From Oscillospiraceae bacterium (GTDB lineage: Bacteria; Bacillota; Clostridia; Oscillospirales; Oscillospiraceae): DNA of 45,963 nucleotides. Numbering within the stretch: position 1 is the first letter of the stretch; every line of letters begins with the position of its first letter. The notes under the pieces are model-generated. The model searched no databases and was not told the DNA's origin. It worked only from the letters and a program-made list of their open reading frames with translations. The position numbers and the translations under genes are program-made. Of this stretch, positions 2,289 to 45,232 are shown piece by piece. The stretch is taken from NCBI GenBank assembly GCA_017439805.1, contig JAFSIK010000017.1:1-45963 (forward strand). The letters run 5' to 3'.

Positions 2289-6043
<3,755 letters not shown>

Positions 6044-40064: not shown

Positions 40065-40096
40065 AAAAACCCAAACGCAAATACGTTTGGGTTTTT
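40065..40096 (-). terminator. Terminator of the tRNA operon
   Basis: AAAAACCCAAACG and CGTTTGGGTTTTT form a 13-bp stem directly after the tRNA-Cys CCA end; the 3' T run lies at the left on the minus strand. Confidence 0.9.
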
Positions 40097-40170
40097 GGAG
40101 GTGCCACCCGGATTTGAACCGGGGAGTGAAGGTTTTGCAGACCTTTGCCTTACCACTTGGCCATGGCACC
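40096..40170 (-). tRNA. tRNA-Cys (GCA)
   Basis: Minus-strand cloverleaf starting GGTGCCATGGCCAAG, anticodon loop CTGCAAA, T arm GGTTCAAATCC, acceptor closing GGCACC-T-CCA with encoded CCA. Last tRNA of the operon. Confidence 0.95.
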
Positions 40171-40175
40171 ATATT

Positions 40176-40205
40176 AATTAAGGTGCTCTTTCGAACACCT
40201 TAATT
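40176..40205 (-). other. Hairpin in the tRNA-Gly/tRNA-Cys spacer
   Basis: AATTAAGGTG (40176-40185) pairs with CACCTTAATT (40196-40205) around a 10-nt loop. No T run follows on the minus strand, so it is not a terminator; a processing signal is possible. Confidence 0.5.
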
Positions 40206-40208
40206 CTT

Positions 40209-40283
40209 TGGAGCGGAAGACGAGATTCGAACTCGCGACTTTCACCTTGGCAAGGTGACACTCTACCACTGAGTCACTCCCGC
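40209..40283 (-). tRNA. tRNA-Gly (GCC)
   Basis: Minus-strand cloverleaf starting GCGGGAGTGACTCAG, anticodon loop TTGCCAA, T arm GAGTTCGAATCTC, acceptor end CTTCCGC-T-CCA with encoded CCA. Confidence 0.95.
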
Positions 40284-40311
40284 AAATTGCCCCGAAACTT
40301 TCCGGGGCTGT

Positions 40312-40387
<76 letters not shown>

Positions 40388-40429
40388 TCATTTAACTGCG
40401 GAGCTGCAAAGCAGCTCCGCAGTAAATGA
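40388..40429 (-). other. Long hairpin in the tRNA-Asp/tRNA-Phe spacer
   Basis: ACTGCGGAGCTGC (40395-40407) pairs perfectly with GCAGCTCCGCAGT (40411-40423) across a 3-nt loop; TCATTT (40388-40393) and AAATGA (40424-40429) extend it to 19 pairs with one bulge. It fills the whole spacer save 4 nt. No T run follows. Confidence 0.65.
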
Positions 40430-40433
40430 ATGA

Positions 40434-40510
40434 TGGCGACCCGGAACGGGCTCGAACCGTCGACCTCTAGCGTGACAGGCTAGCGTTCTAACCGACTGAA
40501 CTACCGGGCC
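40434..40510 (-). tRNA. tRNA-Asp (GTC)
   Basis: Minus-strand cloverleaf starting GGCCCGGTAGTTCAG, anticodon loop CTGTCAC, T arm CGGTTCGAGCCCG, end CCGGGTC-G-CCA with encoded CCA. A GUC anticodon is a substrate for queuosine, made by tgt and queA here. Confidence 0.95.
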
Positions 40511-40516
40511 AATTTA

Positions 40517-40592
40517 TGGTGGGAACAACAGGGCTCGAACCTGTGACCCCATGCTTGTAAGGCATGTGCTCTCCCAGCTGAGCTATGCTCCC
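40517..40592 (-). tRNA. tRNA-Val (TAC)
   Basis: Minus-strand cloverleaf starting GGGAGCATAGCTCAG, anticodon loop CTTACAA, T arm AGGTTCGAGCCCT, end TGTTCCC-A-CCA with encoded CCA. First tRNA of the operon, 6 nt from tRNA-Asp. Confidence 0.95.
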
Positions 40593-43578: not shown

Positions 43579-43980
43579 TTATTCCTCCGTAATAATGGCG
43601 AAAAGTTCGGTTATACGGTCATTTTCACCTTTAAGATAGAGCCAGCCGAAAAGTGTTTCAAGTCCTGTAGCCTTCATATAAACCGCTCTGGGAGTATTGT
43701 GAGGAACGGTACCTACCTTTGCATTTCGGCCACGCTTATATACTGCAATTTCCTCTTCGCTGAGACGGGGCATTATTTTCTCCGCCGCCTCTGCCTGAGC
43801 GGTGGCGCTTACCCACGCCACGGTTGATTTATGCAGGGAAGCAGAGGTGGCACTGCCGTCTGAAACCAGCATAGTGCGCACCAACAGTTCGTACACACCG
43901 TCGCCGATATGAGCAAGTCCCAGTGTGCTGATGGTCTTTATTTTATTCCCGTCCAGAGTGGGGTGGAATATCTCTGCCAA
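43579..43980 (-). CDS. mrnC: Mini-ribonuclease III
   Basis: Dimeric RNase III-type endonuclease without a double-strand-binding domain, which matures 23S rRNA in Bacillus. The 133-residue product starts (L/M)AEIFHPTLDGNKIKTISTLGLAHIGDGVYELLVRTML, whose acidic Asp is catalytic, with HKSTVAWVSATAQA, YKRGRNAK and TGLETLFGWLYLKGENDRI. The TTG at 43980 is chosen because AGGAGG lies 7 nt upstream and it restores family length; the frame stays open to 44058. Operon with rqcH. In many Firmicutes it follows cysS; here it does not. Confidence 0.92.
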   Translation of the reverse strand: MAEIFHPTLDGNKIKTISTLGLAHIGDGVYELLVRTMLVSDGSATSASLHKSTVAWVSATAQAEAAEKIMPRLSEEEIAVYKRGRNAKVGTVPHNTPRAVYMKATGLETLFGWLYLKGENDRITELFAIITEE

Positions 43981-44029
43981 TGCCCGGCCTCCTAAAAATC
44001 GGCGAACCGCCTGTAATTTTATACATAAC

Positions 44030-44058
44030 ATAATAATACATAACTCATTTATGTGCAA
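44030..44058 (-). promoter_or_regulatory. Promoter of mrnC-rqcH
   Basis: Minus strand TTGCAC (44053-44058), 17 nt, TATTAT (44030-44035), about 50 nt before the TTG start. Confidence 0.65.
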
Positions 44059-44121
44059 ATATTTTTAGCCGACATACTAAATGTTGTGGAAAATCCGGTA
44101 AAATTCGACATTTACAACTAA

Positions 44122-44216
44122 TGTTACAAAATGGTTACAAAATCTTATTGACAAAATGGTTACAATCTGTTACATTTTTAATGTCTATTTGGATACAAAA
44201 ATTGGGTTTGGTTACA
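44122..44216 (+). promoter_or_regulatory. GTTACA repeats, WalR/PhoP-like sites upstream of the CHAP gene
   Basis: Five GTTACA copies (44123, 44134, 44159, 44169, 44211). The first pair reads TGTTAC-AAAAT-GGTTAC, one mismatch from the WalR consensus TGTWAH-N5-TGTWAH; the second pair has a 4-nt gap. They surround the promoter. Confidence 0.6.
44148..44176 (+). promoter_or_regulatory. Promoter of the CHAP-domain gene
   Basis: Perfect TTGACA (44148-44153), 17 nt, TACATT (44171-44176). The third and fourth GTTACA repeats lie in its spacer and over its -10. Confidence 0.7.
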
Positions 44217-44242
44217 AATAATTATTGAAGGAGGTGCTGAAA

Positions 44243-45232
44243 ATGCTGAAAAAGAGTTGCAAACGTCTGGTTGTGGCAATTCTTGTCATTGTCATTCTTG
44301 TGGCAGGTTTCAGTGTCAGCGCCGCCGAACGTGAAGACTTCATCGATTGTAACTATATCAAAATTCAGGGTGAGGGCTTTGTAGCCGATTCCCTTAACGG
44401 CGTTGATGCCATCTATAATCTTTACGGACCCACCATGCAGTGCACCGAATTTGTCCGCCGTTATTACAATACTGTTTTCGGCGTAACAATTTATCAGCGC
44501 TCCACCGGCCCTGTAATCGTTTCCGATACCGAATGCTACCTTGAAGTTCTGACCGACGATGAAGAGCCCCAGGAAGGCGACATTATTTTCTGGCCCGTTA
44601 ATGTCAGAAACACCGCCTATTCCCATATCGCTCTCGTTAAGTCCTATGAGGACGGAGTTATCACCATTATTGAGCAGAACTGGCGCTATAACGGCAAATG
44701 TGCATATGAGCGTACCGTTTCCTGGCCCTCTGACAATTACACCGTTTCTCACCTTGTTGACCCCAACGCTCCTGTATTTACTGCTGCTGTTGACGATATT
44801 GTAACCATAGGCAATACTGTTCCCGATGTTTCCGTGCGCAGTACTCCCTGCACCGCATCCGACCTCATCAGCCTCAGTTCAGGAGCTCTTTCCGGTAAGG
44901 TTGGCGTATCCATCAACTCCGGCGCATCCGTGTCCCTGATTATGGGCATTGAGGATGAACTGAGTTTGCTGTCCCGCCAGGAAGCCTACGTTGCAATTGA
45001 AAAACTCATCAAGGCTGCCGGCGTTGAAATGCCCGAATGTGATGTTGAGGAAACTCTCAGCGCTTACAGCGATGGGGATGAAATTTCCGACGATGCCCGT
45101 CAGGCTGTTGCAAATCTTACAGAGCTCGGAATCATCAATATCGGCATGGGACGCGATTGCGCCCCTCAGGAGACCATGACCTACGAACAGTGCCAGGTAG
45201 TCATGATGCGTGTTGCCGCTCTGGTAGGCTGA
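44243..45232 (+). CDS. Secreted CHAP-domain protein, probable peptidoglycan amidase
   Basis: A 329-residue exoprotein. A signal peptide (about 1-27, KKSCKRLVVAILVIVILVAGFSVSA) precedes a CHAP-type cysteine-peptidase fold (about 45-165): QCTEFVRRYY (C67), EEPQEGDIIFWP, SHIALVKS (H128) and ITIIEQNW (E144, N146) supply the expected Cys-His-Glu/Asn site. The linker (about 170-235) is Ser/Val-rich. The C-terminal part (about 240-329, AYSDGDEISDDARQAVANLTELGIINI, ETMTYEQCQVVMMRVAALV) resembles a degenerate SLH pair and may bind the wall. AAGGAGGTG lies before the ATG at 44243. Single-gene unit with a repeat-rich promoter and a terminator. Confidence 0.75.
   Translation: MLKKSCKRLVVAILVIVILVAGFSVSAAEREDFIDCNYIKIQGEGFVADSLNGVDAIYNLYGPTMQCTEFVRRYYNTVFGVTIYQRSTGPVIVSDTECYLEVLTDDEEPQEGDIIFWPVNVRNTAYSHIALVKSYEDGVITIIEQNWRYNGKCAYERTVSWPSDNYTVSHLVDPNAPVFTAAVDDIVTIGNTVPDVSVRSTPCTASDLISLSSGALSGKVGVSINSGASVSLIMGIEDELSLLSRQEAYVAIEKLIKAAGVEMPECDVEETLSAYSDGDEISDDARQAVANLTELGIINIGMGRDCAPQETMTYEQCQVVMMRVAALVG

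Follow-up and report, generated by a model that had tools for sequence, protein, structure and literature searches.

Which protein might read a row of GTTACA repeats in front of a putative cell wall hydrolase gene, and what would its binding do to that gene? The question is raised by a 45,963-nt contig (C82; "the window" below means this whole stretch) in the assembly of an Oscillospiraceae bacterium, which amounts to 1.52 Mb in 93 contigs and is 80% complete. A sequence-only reading of the window had proposed that the repeats serve WalR.

A box array across the promoter of a CHAP gene

Scanning the window, we found five GTTACA copies on the plus strand ahead of this gene, at 44123, 44134, 44159, 44169 and 44211, with the intervals of 11, 25, 10 and 42 nt that the sequence-only reading had given (Table 1). 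That reading had also noted that TGTTAC-N5-GGTTAC (44122-44138) differs from the WalR consensus TGTWAH-N5-TGTWAH by one mismatch, and it does; read on the minus strand as TGTAACCATTTTGTAAC, positions 44123-44139 fit the consensus with 0 mismatches and are its sole exact match within the whole window. Within the two pairs the copies are head-to-tail repeats 10-11 bp apart, which is the arrangement expected of an OmpR/PhoB-type operator.

Table 1. Features of the CHAP promoter region, in window coordinates
Feature	Position	Strand	Remarks
Imperfect box TTTACA	44112..44117	+	11 nt before first GTTACA; read from sequence
Box pair 1: GTTACAAAATGGTTACA on +, TGTAAC-N5-TGTAAC on -	44123..44139	-	Exact WalR consensus; about -60 to -44 of predicted start (start inferred)
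-35 hexamer TTGACA	44148..44153	+	Doubles as imperfect box, 11 nt before next GTTACA
Box pair 2: GTTACAATCTGTTACATT	44159..44176	+	Exact HLR1; within spacer and over -10
-10 hexamer TACATT	44171..44176	+	17-nt spacer; preceded by TG
Imperfect box GATACA	44192..44197	+	Predicted 5' untranslated region; read from sequence
Fifth GTTACA	44211..44216	+	Predicted 5' untranslated region, about +29 (start inferred)
Likely ribosome-binding site GGAGGT	44230..44235	+	Read from sequence
CHAP-domain protein, 329 aa	44243..45232	+	Apparent signal peptide; CHAP = residues 63-146

The clustering goes beyond local chance: none of 20,000 simulated stretches of 122 nt (first-order, modelled on the local 270 nt) held three or more copies. 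Across the whole window GTTACA is not over-represented (16 found, 13.7 expected), and the number of WalR matches at up to one mismatch is close to the chance level (8 against 4.1 expected, with 8 reached in 5 of 100 shuffles). The top-scoring sigma-70-type promoter of the region, TTGACA(44148)-17-TACATT(44171-44176), falls on the downstream half of the array and predicts a transcription start near 44183. Relative to this inferred start, the five copies would lie at about -60, -49, -24, -14 and +29. Part of the array is itself repeated, with 86% identity between 44126-44147 and 44151-44172, 25 nt apart.

As the sequence-only reading had claimed, the gene downstream (ORF 44243-45232) encodes a CHAP domain (E 4.3e-10). 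The C-terminal part of the protein can be aligned with large proteins from relatives. By eye it resembles SLH sequences; Pfam reports no SLH. The CHAP part is found in 4 of 60 relatives at 36-45% identity, and in three of these, from three other genera, a box again lies within the core promoter, in the spacer for two (L015, L016) and forming the -10 in the third (L018). The fourth, from another family (L017), has no GTTACA in its locus. In one of these relatives the box reads TTGACAAAATGGTTACAATATGTTACA, compared to TTGACAAAATGGTTACAATCTGTTACA in the window. We also considered the divergent minus-strand RNase III-like gene (ORF 43579-44058) as the target of the boxes and found it less likely, since its promoter-like hexamers are about 63 nt from pair 1.

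Elsewhere in the window, a scan for the motif upstream of the gene at 2289 had been suggested. None is there, and GTTACA at 2360 and 2808 falls inside the coding sequence. This gene (2289-4904), directly 3' of a queA-like gene (by eye), encodes a protein of 871 aa that has an apparent signal peptide as well as SH3- and SLH-like parts (by eye). The window also carries five clustered tRNA genes (Cys, Gly, Phe, Asp, Val) on the minus strand at 40096-40592.

The motif in the source genome and across the family

The exact repeat GTTACA-N5-GTTACA occurs at 2 places in the source genome, both times as GTTACAAAATGGTTACA. At up to one mismatch the genome-wide count is about that of the reversed control (5 versus 4), so that the exact repeat alone is conspicuous. 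Its second copy (C61:19958-19974) is located 29 nt before a 3D-domain gene whose product has an apparent signal peptide, and just downstream of TTGACA-17-TAGAAT (hexamers by eye). One of three one-mismatch copies, GTTACAATTTGATTACA (C40:3120-3136, minus), precedes the gene of a 98-aa protein without Pfam match, which is followed by an SH3-NlpC/P60 gene in a small-protein-NlpC/P60 operon. With the CHAP, 3D and NlpC/P60 contexts, three wall-enzyme promoters in this genome thus carry the motif.

Small proteins of 95-100 aa without Pfam match are encoded at C40:2796-3092 (minus, L036) and L126:7533-7835, and relatives of them (tblastn), usually ahead of NlpC/P60, are found behind 58 of the 80 sites of the main promoter layout described below. 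Another one-mismatch copy (C40:3562-3578, minus, L013) precedes a 90-aa ORF, which we take to resemble the IreB/UPF0297 family.

Among 200 genomes of the same family, 142 contain the exact motif compared to 28 that contain the reversed pattern, with 277 and 31 sites, respectively. The other 58 have no exact motif, and it is absent from 35 of the 129 good genomes. The motif occurs in both orientations. N5 is the peak gap, with 35 of 95 same-family pairs among the matches listed (gaps 0-20), followed by N4 with 13. Spacer sequences are constrained, the most frequent among the 35 N5 pairs in the matches listed being ATTTG (7) and ATTCG (5).

A scan of named genomes for GTTACAATTTGGTTACA, a 17-mer picked from the family motif sites found first, returned at least 119 stretches. 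Among the 80 titles listed, 37 name Oscillospiraceae or genera placed in that family, 30 are other or unspecified Clostridia-type bacteria and 13 are bacteria or archaea of other groups, as expected by chance. These 13 were kept in the counts, and the 39 of the 119 stretches that were not listed were included in the layout analysis. When genomes were sampled across the class, 127 of 245 matched (raw count). For another clostridial family (f41), we looked at 20 chosen stretches with 38 flanking ORFs, which include Amidase_3 (3), SLH (3), Peptidase_S11 (2), 3D (2) and MreB (1) as well as ORFs without a wall role (glyceraldehyde-3-phosphate dehydrogenase 3, ribosomal L28 2, others). At three loci of this family (L321, L322, L330) the boxes come directly after a TATAAT- or TATGAT-like hexamer, likely at the start site.

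Promoter layout and target genes

At 80 of 150 unique sites, TTGACA (up to two mismatches) is found exactly 21 nt before the first box, while about 6 of 150 would be expected at that offset by chance (an estimate assuming equal base use); the share of 80 in 150 is biased upward because the scan that gave at least 119 stretches used a preselected 17-mer. At up to one mismatch, TTGACA sits at 21 nt in 51 of 116 sites versus a mean of 1.2 at any offset. The consensus of the 80 main-layout sites is TTGACA-N15-GTTACAATTTGGTTACA. TACAAT inside the first box is likely the -10 at a 17-nt spacer, and the second box likely covers the start site.

Within 2.2 kb, 71 of the 80 sites are followed by NlpC/P60 (57), FtsE (10) or SleB-type (4) genes; 4 of the rest have only the small operon partner and 5 have nothing. 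All 10 FtsE genes are at least 80% identical to one that exceeds the NCBIfam FtsE cut-off, and each of the four ABC proteins scanned is an FtsE above that cut-off. By contrast, only 23 of the other 70 sites have a query gene on either side. In both counts some query proteins count themselves, two from loci within the 80 (L076, L126) and five from the other 70. Around 30 reversed-pattern sites, searched on both sides, the same queries found a distant ABC protein (27%) and an SLH protein, each once.

By Pfam, the 105 downstream ORFs contain NLPC_P60 (41), Hydrolase_2 (7) and CHAP (5), while the 27 control ORFs (from 30 control loci, 3 without an ORF) contain no NlpC/P60, SH3, Hydrolase_2 or CHAP and one SLH. 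The enrichment of the motif at wall genes, on which the WalR proposal had been staked, is found relative to reversed-pattern controls.

The other 70 sites include M23-G5 genes, on the opposite strand. At two of these (L069, L192) the TGTAAC pairs come just after a -10-like hexamer, and at three further loci (L103, L170, L173) tandem arrays lie upstream of the promoter (both by eye). At L097, L104 and L107 the motif is located between divergent yicC-like and yebC-like genes, for which we know of no wall role.

Likeness to MtrA, RpaB and WalR sites

According to PMC3353115, head-to-tail repeats 11 bp apart are typical of OmpR/PhoB regulators. In the same text, MtrA of the Corynebacterium glutamicum MtrB-MtrA system has the box (A/G)TAACAATttn(A/G)TAACAAT, an 8-bp direct repeat with a 3-bp linker, its targets include nlpC, mepA and mepB, and it represses from sites near the -10 and activates from upstream of the -35. 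The boxes described here share with it the 11-bp period, the reading sense (as GTTACAATTTGGTTACAAT) and, as far as that text goes, wall-hydrolase targets. They differ at the third base, which is A in C. glutamicum and T in the window; the pair at 44123 has 4 mismatches in 16 to the MtrA consensus, which finds no exact match in the window.

The cyanobacterial RpaB site HLR1, given in PMC11633204 as (G/T)TTACA(T/A)(T/A)NN(G/T)TTACA(T/A)(T/A), is the published consensus that comes closest to the 10-bp pair, and 44159-44176 match it exactly. RpaB is described there as repressing near the start and activating from 50-100 nt upstream. Unlike HLR1 with its 10-bp period, the family pairs peak at 11 bp, and the targets here are wall genes. 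None of the eight OmpR-type response regulators of this genome (80% complete) reaches the RpaB cut-off of 330, the best scoring 235.3.

With WalR, the array shares the exact consensus on the minus strand and wall hydrolases as targets; the box in the window is narrower (TGTAAC). WalR both activates and represses (PMC9210968, PMC7299342). In Bacillus subtilis it activates lytE and cwlO and represses iseA (PMC7299342), whereas the layout in the window suggests repression of hydrolases. Higher WalR in Clostridioides difficile reduces expression of an NlpC/P60 gene that has two predicted sites and increases that of S-layer genes (PMC9210968). Literature searches, with many subscription papers outside their coverage, gave no description of a regulon like the one predicted here.

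Candidate regulators for the boxes

The genome encodes eight PF00486 regulators. Looking for walRK, as the sequence-only reading had advised, we found two walRK-like loci by gene order, domains and a response-regulator tree (which left out the wrong-frame rows L241 and L256; 8 of 20 Metaclostridioides mangenotii regulator loci had no usable ORF). The Bacillus-type locus (C61:42.8-49.4 kb) consists of a response regulator (L002, C61:48693-49388), a kinase in which HAMP and PAS domains are present, two proteins that match no Pfam family and, further on, rlmH. The other (C54:12501-16044) has the C. difficile-type arrangement, with a 445-aa lipoprotein-like protein, a response regulator (L004, C54:13853-14542) and a kinase in one operon. 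A separate system pairs an MtrA-like regulator (L003, C61:28995-29672) with a kinase (C61:27530-29005) that has HAMP and in which no PAS was found. The best NCBIfam model for this regulator is MtrA, at 238.9 bits, below the cut-off of 300.

We compared the distribution of these regulators with that of the motif in the 200 family genomes. L003 has an orthologue in 190 of them (8 of the 190 with a second match) and in 126 of the 129 good genomes, with a 64-residue piece in one more. L002 has a strong orthologue in 118 and another response regulator, L001, in 171, at thresholds (E 1e-77 and 1e-80, respectively) set after seeing the values and with one partial match (G121) counted as lacking L002. 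Presence of the motif shows no significant link with that of L001 across the 200 genomes and no association with L002, being found in 89 of 118 genomes with it and 53 of 82 without (Fisher p 0.11). L004 was looked at in four genomes and is present in all of them. Two of these, G106 and G068 (both 100% complete), carry the motif and keep L003 and L004 while L001 and L002 are absent (regulator typing in G068 took in all but L310); the other two, G011 and G148 (90% complete), have neither the motif nor L003 and keep L001, L002 and L004. On these two patterns, L003 leads and L004 follows; the test is thin, as a missing motif is no rarity among the good genomes (35 of 129) and G011 and G148 are incomplete. 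We consider the MtrA-like regulator with its kinase the most likely reader, at about even odds.

The regulator of the C. difficile-type locus is the main rival, a possible but less likely reader; on this account the boxes would mark a WalRK regulon of that type in a repressive layout. It groups with the regulator beside the lipoprotein-like gene of M. mangenotii (support 100/97), and the order lipoprotein-like gene, regulator, kinase is that of the C. difficile wal operon in PMC9210968, which also supplies the NlpC/P60 gene lowered by raised WalR. The retention of this regulator in G106 and G068 fits, as do one motif site near the CWB2-type gene L143 in M. mangenotii and the fact that this species has only a 45-48% best match to the MtrA-like regulator. 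Against it, G011 and G148 keep the protein at 76-77% identity and have no motif, and 600 kb of M. mangenotii, a sample of low power, hold 1 motif versus 0 controls and no excess of TGTWAH-N5-TGTWAH (10 versus 11). The Bacillus-type WalR of the original proposal we regard as improbable. The 11-bp direct repeats of OmpR/WalR type, the exact consensus match on the minus strand at 44123-44139, the wal-type operon with its PAS kinase and rlmH, YycF as the best NCBIfam model of its regulator (301.8 bits, under the cut-off of 340) and the enrichment at wall genes all speak for that proposal, and these parts of it stand. The motif does not track this protein, however: it persists in the 53 genomes that fall below the post hoc threshold for a strong orthologue, with the same promoter layout in G106, G117 and G163. 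The boxes lie over the -35 and -10, a position that points to repression, whereas the B. subtilis protein activates lytE and cwlO.

Two accounts do without an operator. A role at the RNA level for boxes in the 5' leader, such as binding a regulatory protein or forming a leader switch, would suit the boxes at the 3D gene and the fifth box in the window, all within a predicted leader; the main-layout boxes, however, lie over the spacer and the -10, the spacing peak equals one helical turn and both orientations are found, which makes this very improbable. Chance or a functionless local duplication, to which the 86% repeat at a distance of 25 nt might point, is scarcely credible given the family-wide excess over the reversed pattern, the target bias and the fixed promoter offset.

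Promoters of the regulators themselves were searched for signs of autoregulation. The motif at one mismatch is found in 0 of 21 promoters each for L001, L002 and L003. In 14 of 21 promoters of L003 orthologues (e.g. L226, L230, L240), we observed TT(T/C)ACA-N5-(G/T)T(T/C)AC, followed by a TATAAT-like -10. This pattern was written after seeing the promoters, with 0 occurrences in simple shuffles, and it is absent from the L003 promoter of the source genome; it is possibly a variant box for autoregulation of L003 orthologues. In a record of an uncultured Eubacterium, an OmpR-family regulator (L098:3444-4124, minus) starts 31 nt behind an exact motif. As a pointer to the reader this regulator does not decide the matter, because its identity to the MtrA-like regulators is only 36-42%.

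Proposed mechanism and implications

Overall, we put at roughly 70% the reading in which the boxes form an OmpR-type operator array of a conserved wall-hydrolase regulon, repressive at core promoters and most likely read by the MtrA-like regulator. An OmpR/PhoB-family response regulator would recognize GTTACA, or TGTAAC in the opposite strand, arranged head to tail with a period of 10-11 bp, and the array would belong to a wall-hydrolase regulon conserved in the Oscillospiraceae-type family. At the CHAP promoter and in the commonest promoter type, the boxes lie inside the core promoter, in the spacer, at the -10 and at the start. A regulator bound there, presumably in its phosphorylated form, should obstruct RNA polymerase. 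It would hold the hydrolase down, and loss of the signal would free its expression. By analogy with the position rule of MtrA and RpaB, we infer that the CHAP promoter and the main promoter type would be repressed. Activation is plausible at some other genes, where the repeats lie upstream of the -35, and for the upstream pair of the window an activating role is an alternative.

More tentatively, the MtrA-like regulator and its PAS-less kinase may be an unnamed system, kept by almost all of the family and distinct from both walRK types, that serves as the main wall-hydrolase controller of the family and chiefly as a repressor. Such a system would act via boxes merged with the -10 element in the promoters of NlpC/P60, FtsE(X) and SleB-type genes, and likewise in the CHAP and 3D promoters. 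If this is true, its sign would be opposite to that of WalR at the main Bacillus hydrolases. The boxes may also link the sites of WalR, MtrA and RpaB as a single element that is read from varying positions within a promoter. This analysis provides, for a large group of gut bacteria, a predicted wall-lysis regulon with exact operators, in which hydrolases and FtsE would be held off by a WalR-type system.
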